Assembly (NCBI GenBank): GCA_019090455.1
Contig: JAHRWA010000015.1
Location: forward strand, 62,001-126,000
Reading direction: 5' to 3'
Length of the DNA: 64,000 bases
Source: Pseudomonadales bacterium
Lineage (GTDB): Bacteria; Pseudomonadota; Gammaproteobacteria; Pseudomonadales; DC-out160
Part shown: one piece after another, positions 17,817 to 61,439 of the stretch
Numbering within the stretch: position 1 is the first letter of the stretch
How the letters are laid out: each line of letters begins with the position of its first letter
The notes under the pieces: generated by a model
Databases searched by the model: none
The model's input: the letters and a program-made list of their open reading frames with translations, nothing else
Told to the model about the DNA's origin: nothing
Made by a program: the position numbers and the translations under genes

Positions 17817-17852
17817 ACTTTCTTAAAAAGCGACTTTCTCATTTTCAGTTTC

Positions 17853-17903
17853 TTGGTATAGCCACAATTTTGGTATAGCTAAATTTTTGGTATCGCCATT
17901 TTC
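17853..17903. repeat. degenerate tandem repeat, 3 x 17 bp
   Basis: Three consecutive 17 bp units starting TTGGTAT at 17853, 17870 and 17887; the units agree in the first 7 bases and diverge towards the end. It lies in the convergent gap between the porin gene and the enoyl-CoA hydratase gene, 27 bp beyond the stop of the latter. Confidence 0.75.
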
Positions 17904-17930: not shown

Positions 17931-18752
17931 CTATTCGAGCCAGTTAGGCTTACGTTTTTCGAAAAAAGCGGCAATTCCCTCTTGCGCATCACCTTCTTCA
18001 ATTGTTCTTGCTAGCATCTCGGCTAAATAGGGGAGGGCATCAGCAAAGCTCTGAGACTCTTGCTTATTGTAGGCCTCCAGCCCCAACTTCATTGTGTTGG
18101 GGGGTAGCTGGGTAAGATCGCTCGCGATTTTTTCTACCGCAGAGTCTAAGTCTTCGGTGTTGACCGCTTCATTGATTAGCCCCCAGCTTTGCGCTGTATT
18201 GGCATCAACTTCGTATCCTCTCATTATCCAATCTAAACCTACCCGTTTCGGAATCACTCGAAACAAGCCAGCCATTACCATGTAGGGCCATAAACCACGT
18301 TTGATTTCCGGAGCGCTAAAGGTGGCGTGTTTGACTGCGACGACGTGCGATGCATTAGCTACTAGTAGTAGTGCACCGGCAAATACGGAACCTTGTACCT
18401 TGACGATAAAGGGTTTGCATAAATCTCGTATGCGTAGCGCAAGATCGTTGAGTTCTCCCAGTTTAGGGACCGTGCTTGTGGTCTGCTGAGTTTTACCACC
18501 CATTGAAGCGAGATCGCCGCCAGCGCAAAAAATATTGCCTGCTGCGCCGAGTACCACCACCCGAATGTTTGACGCTTGTTTAGCAAAATCGAGAGCATAA
18601 ACCAGTTCAATACCCATGACGGCATTGAGCGCATTTTTCTTTTCGGGACGGTTCAATGTGATTTCCAATACATGACCTTTGATCTCCCACAATATGGCTT
18701 CGAAGGTGTGGTCTGAGAGGGATAGTTTTACTGCAGTTTCAGATTGACTCAT
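17931..18752 (-). CDS. enoyl-CoA hydratase/isomerase family protein
   Basis: A 273-residue crotonase-fold enzyme of acyl-CoA degradation. Start ATG 18752 (MSQSETAVKL) is preferred; the frame is open further to 18842, but that extension is made of a 15 bp tandem repeat. Motifs: EITLNRPEKKNALN, the oxyanion-hole segment GNIFCAGGDLASMGG near residues 76-90, and KVQGSVFAGALLLVANASHVVAV with the second oxyanion-hole glycine. The second catalytic Glu position is occupied by FSAPEIKRGLWPY. The enzyme could be a hydratase or an isomerase; the motif differs from strict EchA hydratases at one catalytic glutamate (LLLVANASH, where many have a 'GGGFELALACD' pattern). It is the last gene of the 21.3-17.9 kb minus-strand set. 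Confidence 0.85.
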   Translation of the reverse strand: MSQSETAVKLSLSDHTFEAILWEIKGHVLEITLNRPEKKNALNAVMGIELVYALDFAKQASNIRVVVLGAAGNIFCAGGDLASMGGKTQQTTSTVPKLGELNDLALRIRDLCKPFIVKVQGSVFAGALLLVANASHVVAVKHATFSAPEIKRGLWPYMVMAGLFRVIPKRVGLDWIMRGYEVDANTAQSWGLINEAVNTEDLDSAVEKIASDLTQLPPNTMKLGLEAYNKQESQSFADALPYLAEMLARTIEEGDAQEGIAAFFEKRKPNWLE

Positions 18753-18782
18753 AATAAAGATTCTTCTTGCTGTATGGCTCGT

Positions 18783-18840
18783 GTGAATTTGGCTTGCGTG
18801 AATTGGACTTAGGTAAATTGTGCTTAGGTGAATCAGATTC
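18783..18840. repeat. degenerate tandem repeat, about 4 x 15 bp
   Basis: Units begin GTGAATT at 18783, GTGAATT at 18798, GTAAATT at 18813 and GTGAATC at 18828 (last unit 13 bp). It ends 31 bp upstream of the enoyl-CoA hydratase ATG. Read in the minus-strand frame of that gene it would encode a period-5 peptide (S-x-I-H/Y-x), which argues against the longer start. Confidence 0.8.
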
Positions 18841-18926
18841 AAAATAAAAGTGTGTTGAGCTTAATTTGAACCTGATCGTTCGGGCTTGCCTTTAGTTGTG
18901 TTTAGTGGCGTCTAGTTTTGCCCAAA

Positions 18927-20045
18927 TTATAAAAGTAAGTCTGCGAGCTTCTTACGGTGATGTTGTGCATCGCCAAAAGCAAATTCACACCAACGTGCTC
19001 GGCGTAAAAATAACTGCGCATCACAGTCATAAGTAAAACCAAAACCGCCATGAAATTGAATCGCGCGATCCGAGGCATAGGTAAAGGTTTCGCTGGCTAG
19101 ACTAATTGCCATGCGTGCTGCGATTTCAGCAGTTTCGCTTTCCGGGCCGTCACTGACGACAGAAGCAGCATGATAACAATGGGATCGAGAGGACTCTAAA
19201 TCAACTAAAATGTTAGCCATGGGGTGTTTGAGTCCTTGATATGAGCCTATAGGCTGGCCAAACTGTTTGCGCAGTTTAAGGTACTCAACGGTGACATCCA
19301 TTACGCCGTTGATTCCGCCAGCCATTTCTGCACTCAGTAGTAACCATGCTGTACGTGACATCTGCGCAATTGCATCATTCACGTTGCCGCTATTTAATAA
19401 TTGAGATTGAGCGACTTGAATACCGTCTAAATTTAGCCGAAAGCTGCGACGGGTTTCGTCTATTGCTGTCTCTCGTTGCATTTTTCCGGCGACGGCGCTT
19501 TTTTCTAGCAGTGCCAATTGGAGTTGACCGTCAGTCTCTTTGACCACAGAGATAATGAGATCAGCGTCTGTCCCGTTGAGTACGGATGTTTTAGTGCCAG
19601 TTAAAGTGCCGTTGGAATGACTTGCTTCTATATCTGCAGAATTCCAAGAGCCGTTCATTTCCGTCATGGCGATAGAGGCGATGATGGAGCCGTCGGCAAT
19701 TTTCGGTAACCATTGAGATTTCTGCTCAGGACTACCCGCCGCAAGAAGAAGCTGGCTTGCTAAAATCTGAGTGAATAATGGGGCGCTGACTAGGTGGCGA
19801 CCCATTCCTTCAAATACCGGTACTAAATCACCGACATTGAGTCCGCTACCACCGAACTCTTCTGGGATGGCGATGCCGGCCCATCCCAATTGAATCATCT
19901 CTTGCCAAACTTTTTGATCAAATCCTTTTTCGGTTTCGATTAGCTCGCGTACTTTATCTAGGCTGCTATTGTCTCGGCTAAATTTTTGCGCCGTATTCAT
20001 TAGCATGGCTTGTTCTTCACTGAAATTGATATCCAGGTTTTCCAT
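18927..20045 (-). CDS. acyl-CoA dehydrogenase, probable subunit of a heteromeric enzyme
   Basis: A 372-residue flavoprotein of the acyl-CoA dehydrogenase family. N-terminal helical domain (MENLDINFSEEQAMLMNTAQKF), GWAGIAIPEEFGGSG, the middle beta domain with SIAMTEMNG, the C-terminal helices with YLKLRKQFGQPIGSYQGLKH and the FAD-contacting AIQFHGGFGFTYDCDAQLFLRRA. It resembles the smaller, divergent subunits (FadE/ChsE type) that pair with a second dehydrogenase subunit to form alpha2beta2 enzymes acting on steroid or other bulky acyl-CoAs. The partner is probably the next gene upstream (20130-21335), 84 bp away. AAAGGACA precedes ATG 20045. Pairing is inferred from adjacency and family precedent. 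Confidence 0.85.
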   Translation of the reverse strand: MENLDINFSEEQAMLMNTAQKFSRDNSSLDKVRELIETEKGFDQKVWQEMIQLGWAGIAIPEEFGGSGLNVGDLVPVFEGMGRHLVSAPLFTQILASQLLLAAGSPEQKSQWLPKIADGSIIASIAMTEMNGSWNSADIEASHSNGTLTGTKTSVLNGTDADLIISVVKETDGQLQLALLEKSAVAGKMQRETAIDETRRSFRLNLDGIQVAQSQLLNSGNVNDAIAQMSRTAWLLLSAEMAGGINGVMDVTVEYLKLRKQFGQPIGSYQGLKHPMANILVDLESSRSHCYHAASVVSDGPESETAEIAARMAISLASETFTYASDRAIQFHGGFGFTYDCDAQLFLRRARWCEFAFGDAQHHRKKLADLLL

Positions 20046-20129: not shown

Positions 20130-21335
20130 TTAGCCTTTTGGCAACCCTAGTACTCGTTCTCCCAGTATGTTTCGTTGTATCTCGCTGGTGCCCCCACCGA
20201 TGGTTGCAGAAAAAGCATTGAAGTATGCGCGCTGCCAAAAACCGCTATCAATAGCTTGCTCATCTCCGTAGTAGAGAGTGGCTTCGCTGCCTTGTAGGGA
20301 TACGGCGAATTGGCATAGTTCTCGTCGGAATTCGGAATACTGCAATTTTGATGCGAGAGGAATCGCGAAGGGCCGCTCAGCATTTAGTGCGCCAACAGAC
20401 CGGCGTTTTTCATTCAGTAGTAGTGCTCTTTCGGTAATGAGAAATTGAACTATTTTATCTCTAACGATGGGGTCTTCGATCGCTGGCTTGCCGTCGCGTT
20501 TAGCGCGTCGTGCAAGATCGACAACTTGACTCGCTTCAAGCATCACCATACTTTGGCCGCCCGCTTGTCCTGTTGAGGCGCCTCGTTCAAAAGCGAGAGT
20601 GGCCATTGCCACTTGCCATCCCATGCCTTCTGCGCCAACCATGCAGCTAGCGGGAATACGAGCATCGGTGAAAAAGGTTTCAGTGAAACCGTATTCCCCT
20701 GTGATTTTTCTCAGGGGGACAGGCTTGACGCCGTCTATTTTCATAGGGGAAAGAAAGAAGCTGAGACCCGCATATTTGTTAGTAGCTTCAGGGTTTGTTC
20801 TGGCTAGGAGAATCATGTGATCTGCATGAGAACCCAAGCTAGTCCAAATTTTTGCACCATTGAGTACGTAATCATCTCCGTCTTTTACGGCTTTCAGTTG
20901 TGCGTTGCCGAGATCCGATCCGTTGTCGGGTTCTGAAAAACCTTGGCACCAGATATCTTCAGCACTGAGAATTCGTTTAATATATTTCTGTTTTTGCTCT
21001 TCGCTTCCCATTTGCATGATCATCGGACCGGCCCAGCATAGGCCGATGGTATTCATCATAAAGGGCACTTTTCTTTTTGCCATGACGGCGTCAGTGATGT
21101 TTTGGAATGCTGGGTCCATTCCTCGTCCACCCAGTTCTTTAGGCCATGCGATGCCAAGGTAGCCGGCTTCGTATACTTTGTTTTGCCAATCTCTGAGAAA
21201 ATTAAATTGCTCATCAGTACCCACCTCCATAAAACTATCGGGCAGAGCAAAGCTGGGTTGTGCAGGCGTATTGGTATCAAACCAGGATTCGGCCTCCAGT
21301 TTGAATTCATCTAGTTCTTTTTGAGATGGAGCCAT
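20130..21335 (-). CDS. acyl-CoA dehydrogenase, probable partner subunit
   Basis: A 401-residue acyl-CoA dehydrogenase with the N-terminal domain (YLGIAWPKELGGRGMDP), the FAD/substrate segment CQGFSEPDNGSDLGNAQLKAVKDGDDYVLNGAKIWTS around residues 130-167 (in pieces), and a C-terminal helical domain ending SATIGGGTSEIQRNILGERVLG. AGGGAATATC precedes ATG 21335. It is the first gene of a three-gene minus-strand set with the second dehydrogenase and the enoyl-CoA hydratase. The five-copy 17 bp repeat lies just upstream of its ribosome-binding site. Substrate unknown; the set would carry out dehydrogenation and hydration steps of a beta-oxidation-like spiral. Confidence 0.88.
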   Translation of the reverse strand: MAPSQKELDEFKLEAESWFDTNTPAQPSFALPDSFMEVGTDEQFNFLRDWQNKVYEAGYLGIAWPKELGGRGMDPAFQNITDAVMAKRKVPFMMNTIGLCWAGPMIMQMGSEEQKQKYIKRILSAEDIWCQGFSEPDNGSDLGNAQLKAVKDGDDYVLNGAKIWTSLGSHADHMILLARTNPEATNKYAGLSFFLSPMKIDGVKPVPLRKITGEYGFTETFFTDARIPASCMVGAEGMGWQVAMATLAFERGASTGQAGGQSMVMLEASQVVDLARRAKRDGKPAIEDPIVRDKIVQFLITERALLLNEKRRSVGALNAERPFAIPLASKLQYSEFRRELCQFAVSLQGSEATLYYGDEQAIDSGFWQRAYFNAFSATIGGGTSEIQRNILGERVLGLPKG

Positions 21336-21361
21336 GATATTCCCTCGAATTGCTATCGTTG

Positions 21362-21446
21362 TTGGTAAATGATTAATGTTGGTAAGTGACTGGTGTCGGT
21401 AAGTGACACTGGTTGATAAGTGAATGTTGTTGATAAGTGATTATTG
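21362..21446. repeat. degenerate tandem repeat, 5 x 17 bp
   Basis: Five consecutive 17 bp units starting at 21362, 21379, 21396, 21413 and 21430, consensus TTGGTAAGTGAnTnnTG, with a partial sixth (TCGG). It begins 27 bp upstream of the start codon of the acyl-CoA dehydrogenase gene at 21335 and probably lies in its promoter or 5' leader. Confidence 0.9.
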
Positions 21447-21732
21447 TCGGAAACGGCCGCGTAATAAATCGTGACGCGAGAATTGGAGCTCTTGAGTTGA
21501 AAATTTTCATACTAGAGAGCCGAGTTCCTTGGCGCATGATACAAGGGCTTATCCGCCAAGGTGTTAACCGACGAAAAGAGCGTATTGTCCAATTTACATT
21601 TACGTTGGGAGCGCTTTTTTTGAAGAGAATATTAGCTATAAAAGTGGTTGGAGCCAAGCTTAATTGTATAATCGGCTGGCTGCCAAGGAGTGAGGGCTTT
21701 AAAATAGGTTATACGAGTATCGAGGTTTAATT

Positions 21733-22017
21733 GTGTCGCGAAGTGAAAGTAAGAATACCGAAATGATGCAGTGTCGAGCAGGGTGTGGAGCTTGTTGTAT
21801 TGCTCCGTCAATTACGAGTTCGATTCCGGGAATGCCCGCTGGTAAGTTGGCAGGAGTGCATTGCGTGCAGTTAGACGATTCCTATAACTGTAAAATTTTT
21901 GATGCACCGGATCGCCCAGCAGTTTGCGCTGCATTTCAGGCAAATCTTGATGTTTGTGGTACTAGCAAAGAACAAGCGATGGTGCTGATTGCTCGACTGG
22001 AAATGTTGACGAACTAG
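21733..22017 (+). CDS. YkgJ-family cysteine-cluster protein
   Basis: A 94-residue protein with the YkgJ (UPF0153) pattern of cysteines: CRAGCGACC near residues 14-22, CVQLDDSYNC and CAAF, then a late VCG. The family is thought to bind a zinc ion or iron-sulfur cluster; its role is unknown. GTG 21733 (MSRSESKNTEMMQC) is the likely start, though ATG at codon 11-12 is also possible. It is divergent from the acyl-CoA dehydrogenase gene and precedes the MoxR gene by about 300 bp. The assignment is secure but functionally uninformative. Confidence 0.8.
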   Translation: MSRSESKNTEMMQCRAGCGACCIAPSITSSIPGMPAGKLAGVHCVQLDDSYNCKIFDAPDRPAVCAAFQANLDVCGTSKEQAMVLIARLEMLTN

Positions 22018-37107: not shown

Positions 37108-37142
37108 CTTTATCTAAATAGTGACAATCTATCTAGATAAAG
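37108..37142. repeat. 9 bp inverted repeat upstream of the STAS gene
   Basis: CTTTATCTA (37108-37116) and TAGATAAAG (37134-37142) around a 17 bp loop, about 33 bp before the STAS start. AT-rich; it could be an operator or leader hairpin. Confidence 0.4.
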
Positions 37143-37300
37143 GATAGTTCCTGATGAAGTATATTTCCTGGTAAAGCCTAAATATTGATGATTAGGAGAT
37201 ATCTTGAAAATGCTTTAACCAAATTACATTGAATTAGCTAGTAATGGGATAACTGTATCCTACGATGATTAATCACAGGATCTAAGCTGGATTTTTAAAC

Positions 37301-50039: not shown

Positions 50040-50107
50040 ATTTTTAGACCCAGTATTTTAGACCCTGTATTACAGGTTCAGTATTTCAGGTTCTGTATTA
50101 TTGACAT
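50040..50107. repeat. degenerate tandem repeat, about 4.7 x 14-15 bp
   Basis: Units begin at 50040, 50055, 50069 and 50083, each starting ATT and ending in GT (ATTTTTAGACCCAGT, ATTTTAGACCCTGT, ATTACAGGTTCAGT, ATTTCAGGTTCTGT), then a partial unit. It fills the gap between the mtaD stop and the ubiG ribosome-binding region. Confidence 0.85.
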
Positions 50108-61391: not shown

Positions 61392-61439
61392 GTTAGTAAT
61401 GAATAAAGTTAGTGATGGATAAAGCTAAAGCTAGCGAAA
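61392..61439. repeat. degenerate tandem repeat, about 3 x 16 bp
   Basis: GTTAGTAATGAATAAA (61392-61407), GTTAGTGATGGATAAA (61408-61423) and a diverged third unit GCTAAAGCTAGCGAAA (61424-61439), in the gap between tyrA-aroA and cmk, ending 28 bp before the cmk start. Confidence 0.7.

Follow-up and report, generated by a model that had tools for sequence, protein, structure and literature searches.

Short private tandem arrays in the intergenic spacers of a Pseudomonadales bacterium, and a five-copy 17-bp example beside an acyl-CoA dehydrogenase gene

Bacterial minisatellites, or VNTRs, consist of imperfect head-to-tail copies in intergenic spacers, are lineage-specific and differ between relatives. 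In Escherichia coli, minisatellites apart from palindromic units account for 2–4% of variable loci, only units of at least 20 bp having been sought (PMC2884548). The Beggiatoaceae carry many small sets of direct repeats of variable copy number in the spacers of these marine bacteria; a single heptamer, TAACTGA, is favoured and lies mostly right upstream of start codons, and an RNA-binding-protein reading was proposed for it (PMC4679880). Short heptameric tandem repeats are also described for Nostoc and Xanthomonas (PMC4692102).

Here we analyze a five-copy tandem array of a 17-bp unit in a Pseudomonadales bacterium, within a 64,000-nucleotide stretch of one contig (the window). The class to which the array belongs resembles minisatellites in the traits listed above, but it is unusually abundant, its units are about 12–22 bp long and their sequences are not shared. 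It is similar to the TAACTGA repeats in forming many small direct-repeat sets with variable copy number, whereas the unit of the array is 17 bp, the 12–22 bp units of the class are unrelated, and proximity to gene starts is at the level expected (21 vs 20.7). As for the heptameric repeats, the genome has ten period-7 spacer arrays, but its main unit is at least twice as long and the sequences are private. In searches of open-access literature, we recognized no report of abundant private 12–22 bp arrays in a gammaproteobacterium.

The array and its neighborhood

The five units lie in exact 17-bp register, as the first-pass annotation had described, and this regularity is real: the best lag-17 score over four unit lengths reaches 51 of 68, whereas first-order Markov shuffling of the window, repeated 30 times, never gave more than 35. 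The core is TTGRTAAGTGA, the 85 positions include 14 mismatches to the column majority, and neighboring units are identical at 13, 12, 11 and 15 of 17 positions (65–88%), with no clean drop of identity with copy distance in this array alone. The flanking 17-mers match the consensus at 8 and 7 of 17 positions (random mean 4.9, s.d. 1.9), so that any extra decayed copies are indistinguishable from chance. Within the window, the array also deserves its description as the cleanest one, its two Tandem Repeats Finder rows (scores 97 and 80) ranking at the top of 24. Weaker arrays are present at 37136–37176 (17 bp), 50042–50100 (two of 14 bp) and 61392–61424 (16 bp).

The pair of acyl-CoA dehydrogenase genes recognized earlier was confirmed and is followed by an enoyl-CoA hydratase gene, all three on the minus strand (Table 1). 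As written, the array is thus antisense to the first dehydrogenase gene. The distance to the start codon (ATG at 21335) is 26 bases, close to the 27 previously noted; alignments of the orthologous products begin at residue 1 or 2 in two of seven cases and at residues 3 to 7 in the rest. The other neighbor of the array is a gene encoding a CxxCxxCC motif.

Table 1. Features of the window around the five-copy array (window coordinates)
Feature	Position	Strand	Description
Five-copy 17-bp tandem array	21362–21446	+	Unit of TTGRTAAGTGA plus 6 variable bases
Second 17-bp array, same class	17850–17898	+	TTGGTATAGC core, three copies
Acyl-CoA dehydrogenase	20130–21335	-	Pfam PF00441, PF02770, PF02771; ATG 26 bases from the array
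Second acyl-CoA dehydrogenase	18927–20045	-	
Enoyl-CoA hydratase/isomerase	17931–18842	-	
CxxCxxCC gene	21733–22017		Other neighbor of the five-copy array

The second 17-bp array is located in a convergent spacer beyond the end of the acyl-CoA dehydrogenase gene set. When the genome is searched for three TTGGTA words spaced 17 bp apart, the two arrays are the top matches. We take this likeness as chance, because the pattern was derived from both arrays and because, of 29 pairs of neighboring arrays, 4 have a 6-mer in common, the background rate being 17%.

A genome-wide class of short tandem arrays

Arrays were sought in the window's own genome (G000) and in comparison genomes from a set of 56 representing the order, one per species, of which two belong to the genus: G000 and its sister species, G001. 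The detector required an 11-mer to match the next copy with at most two mismatches, over three consecutive copies. In 824 kb of G000 including 96 kb of spacer, with genes called as long open frames only and some spacer borders therefore wrong, we identified 51 intergenic arrays of period 7–22 bp. By period, these comprise ten of 7, two of 8, two of 9, one of 10, three of 12, three of 13, six of 14, three of 15, seven of 16, four of 17, five of 18, one of 19, three of 20 and one of 22 bp. The 25 arrays of period 14–18 compare with 0.10 expected from shuffled spacers, and 46 arrays, 21 of them of period 14–18, remain in 740 kb once the window is set aside together with two stretches that had been retrieved on account of their arrays. 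Similarly, 272 kb of G001 contain 31 intergenic arrays of period 7–22, with 15 of period 14–18 against 0.05 expected (29 and 13, respectively, minus one contig fetched for its array). The same detector found one array in G006, seven in 160 kb of G028, and none in the intergenic DNA of G004, G039 and G036; sampling was thin, with 2–14 kb of spacer in each of these five comparison genomes, at a spacer G+C content of 0.48–0.52 vs 0.38.

The preferred unit length is also apparent from pairs of copies. The two-copy lag spectrum is in excess at lags 12–22 (62 vs 12.0 at lag 14 and 54 vs 12.4 at lag 16), is close to expectation at 23–27 and rises again at 28–30, 32, 36 and 44, with a further excess at lag 7 in G000. 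Pooling both species yields 100 arrays of period 12–22 in 1.34 Mb, which suggests about 400 arrays per genome, an extrapolation from a sample that includes the stretches fetched for arrays and many G001 contigs chosen because they had appeared as motif or protein hits.

Arrays of the same periods also occur inside genes, where 29 of 30 in G000, with a peak at 15, and all nine in G001 have a period divisible by three, compared with 11 of 36 in G000 spacers. This is as expected if duplication is general and the reading frame weeds out most other periods; repeats kept for the sake of the protein itself would show the same multiples of three. Four period-7 arrays lie inside G000 genes, and the reading-frame filter is therefore incomplete at short periods. 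Among 16 arrays of at least four copies, identity declines with copy distance (0.845, 0.796, 0.736, 0.711 and 0.690, the last two values resting on six and three comparisons), a drop that is partly built in because the detector requires adjacent copies to be alike. One 14-bp array of G001 (L077, 2374–2470; CTTAAATCGTAGTT) has about seven copies with graded decay and would suit a study of array growth.

The units are private to each array. An 8-mer is common to 78 of the 4950 pairs formed by the 100 arrays, compared with 70 after letter shuffling and 123 after first-order shuffling, and sharing of 6-, 7- and 9-mers likewise falls between or near the two shuffles, so that word sharing is no greater than shuffles allow. 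Nor does the class prefer gene starts: of the 87 array ends that face a start, 21 are no more than 30 bp away from it (20.7 expected), and for stops the corresponding count is 23 of 59 (20.0 expected). The density of 73 arrays is 0.55 per kb in tandem spacers, 0.41 in divergent and 0.34 in convergent ones, the class thus being present in convergent spacers too, at a somewhat lower density.

The arrays turn over between the sister species. In 28 orthologous spacers of up to 1.2 kb, seven arrays were found in G001 and two in G000, and none of these nine is common to both; two or three of them were judged coding-like or simple sequence, and neither 17-bp array of the window is included. The earlier suggestion that the five-copy array could be expansion-prone is supported for its class between species, whereas the array itself has no counterpart spacer in G001, which lacks the gene set at the syntenic position. 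There, the gene preceding the CxxCxxCC gene is another one, encoding an acyl-CoA dehydrogenase middle domain; its G000 counterpart is found on the same contig at a distance of about 45 kb, and the dehydrogenase gene set of the window therefore belongs to a segment missing from this place in G001. The closest match to the first dehydrogenase in the whole G001 assembly, which is 87% complete, is 43% identical.

The missing segment of about 45 kb corresponds to roughly 38.2–83.7 kb of the G000 contig (G000:C9), with the dehydrogenase set at its edge. Its junction falls at about 21450–21740 of the window, and both species have an array at this junction, the two being unrelated in sequence; the G001 array, between the two genes, has a period of 14 and overruns the start of the CxxCxxCC gene. 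Additionally, G001 contig C363 begins with a period-7 array of 13 TAGTTAA copies (L280, 1–91), and a short TAGTTAA array lies 118 bases from the end of contig C494 (L247, 11791–11818). These two contigs map to adjoining parts of the window, and the TAGTTAA array may have broken the assembly.

Tandem duplication and functional readings of the array

We consider it likely that the five-copy array is a decaying minisatellite that originated by local tandem duplication. Spacer DNA beside the gene start would have been duplicated in tandem several times, most likely by slippage during replication, in units of about 12–22 bases, and the copies would have diverged afterwards. The same process, operating genome-wide and in the sister species, could account for several hundred short arrays of unrelated sequence that would be gained and lost quickly. 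Slippage is the cause to which this pattern points, and the array itself would have no dedicated function.

The first-pass annotation had raised the possibility of a stacked binding site for a regulator. On such a reading, a regulator of the dehydrogenase genes would recognize the 11-bp core in each of the five units, at 17-bp intervals, and control transcription. The array does lie 26 bases from the start codon, and 10 of its 14 mismatches fall within six neighboring columns of 17 (row-permutation p = 0.037), a pattern expected of a conserved binding core, although this value is optimistic because the array was chosen for its regular look. Closeness to the start codon and this clustering are the sole positive signs of function. 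Against them stands the comparison with relatives: orthologs of the first dehydrogenase with 57–63% identity were identified among the 56 genomes in G039, G004, G040, G047, G022 and G005, together with a second copy in G022 (56%), and none of the 420-bp regions upstream of these seven genes contains an array by the same detector. Furthermore, a pair of motifs at strict spacing with no more than one mismatch occurs in G000 only at the array itself. Looser spacer letters add single-mismatch pairs, two at other places in G000 and three in G001, which does not exceed the level of the reversed control, and the control pattern outnumbers the motif pattern (39 and 56 vs 20 and 21 hits). Since matches to the looser pattern are at control level, no regulon is seen. 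Likewise, when up to two mismatches are allowed, the core is not more common in the window than in shuffles (35 vs 40.3), and the unit, judged from its sequence, is non-palindromic. A 17-bp period does not correspond to an integral number of helical turns, which also counts against an operator, as does the lack of a sigma-70-like promoter in 21300–21800 (none vs 1.1 in shuffles); terminator-like sites in the same interval likewise number zero (0.4 in shuffles). With private units, indifference of the class to gene starts, arrays not shared with G001 and orthologous upstream regions free of arrays, the proposal is left unsupported, and we regard it as very improbable.

We attach a similarly low probability to a phase-variable or tunable leader, in which the number of units would alter promoter or leader spacing and hence gene expression. 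Such arrays do come and go between sister species, and this one is near a start codon, but adjacent copies are only 65–88% alike, and imperfect copies are expected to slip at a lower rate than perfect repeats. The lack of preference for gene starts in the class argues against this reading too. That the array is a repeated unpaired leader motif bound by an RNA-binding protein is highly improbable: its sense strand is predicted to be mostly unpaired and a start codon is nearby, but leader folding is no better than in shuffles (z-score -0.95), a search of 21000–22000 yielded no Rfam match up to an E value of 1, and with every array having its own sequence there is little to suggest one reader protein for all. 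We view the array as a commonplace outcome of an unusual tendency that extends across the genome, and an operator is unlikely.

Candidate causes and implications

Ku-mediated end joining cannot be the cause in this genus, because Ku (PF02735) was not found in the array-rich genomes G000, G001 and G028; across the order, it was detected in 3 of 56 genomes, including the borderline G020. Three exonucleases were tested in seven genomes. RecJ matched in all seven (in G036 slightly under the family cut-off), as did the large exonuclease VII subunit (in G039 as a short match under the cut-off). Exonuclease I (PF08411) was missing in the first three array-rich genomes, whereas all four array-poor ones have it. 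However, loss of exonuclease I is not supported as a general cause: a prediction set beforehand from array counts, namely that the array-bearing G007, G008 and G012 should lack the enzyme, was wrong in all three cases, with G008 and G012 being array-positive on only 1.0 and 0.4 kb of spacer. The borderline G020 also has exonuclease I; G019 and G025, both without it, showed no array in 1.6 and 1.2 kb of spacer, respectively. In total, the enzyme is missing in three of seven array-positive genomes vs 1 of 17 array-negative ones with at least 1.4 kb of sampled spacer, a limit of our own choosing that excludes G025 and other small samples. The C-terminal domain of exonuclease I (PF08411) was found in 44 of the 56 genomes and not in the other 12, G000, G001 and G028 among the latter; its absence is less sure in G001, given the 87% completeness of that assembly.

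Regular arrays by gene starts are easily mistaken for operator arrays, and the large-scale count in this genome points to a background product instead. More tentatively, and with slightly less than even confidence, we propose that tandem duplications of about 12–22 bases arise in some lineages of the order through a distinct mutational process, which continually rewrites spacers and acts also in genes, where almost only multiples of three survive, and that the array beside the dehydrogenase gene is one of its products. If the 12–22 bp range reflects a specific trait of replication or repair, the arrays could serve as strain markers, and the genus and its array-poor relatives would provide a natural comparison in which to find that trait.
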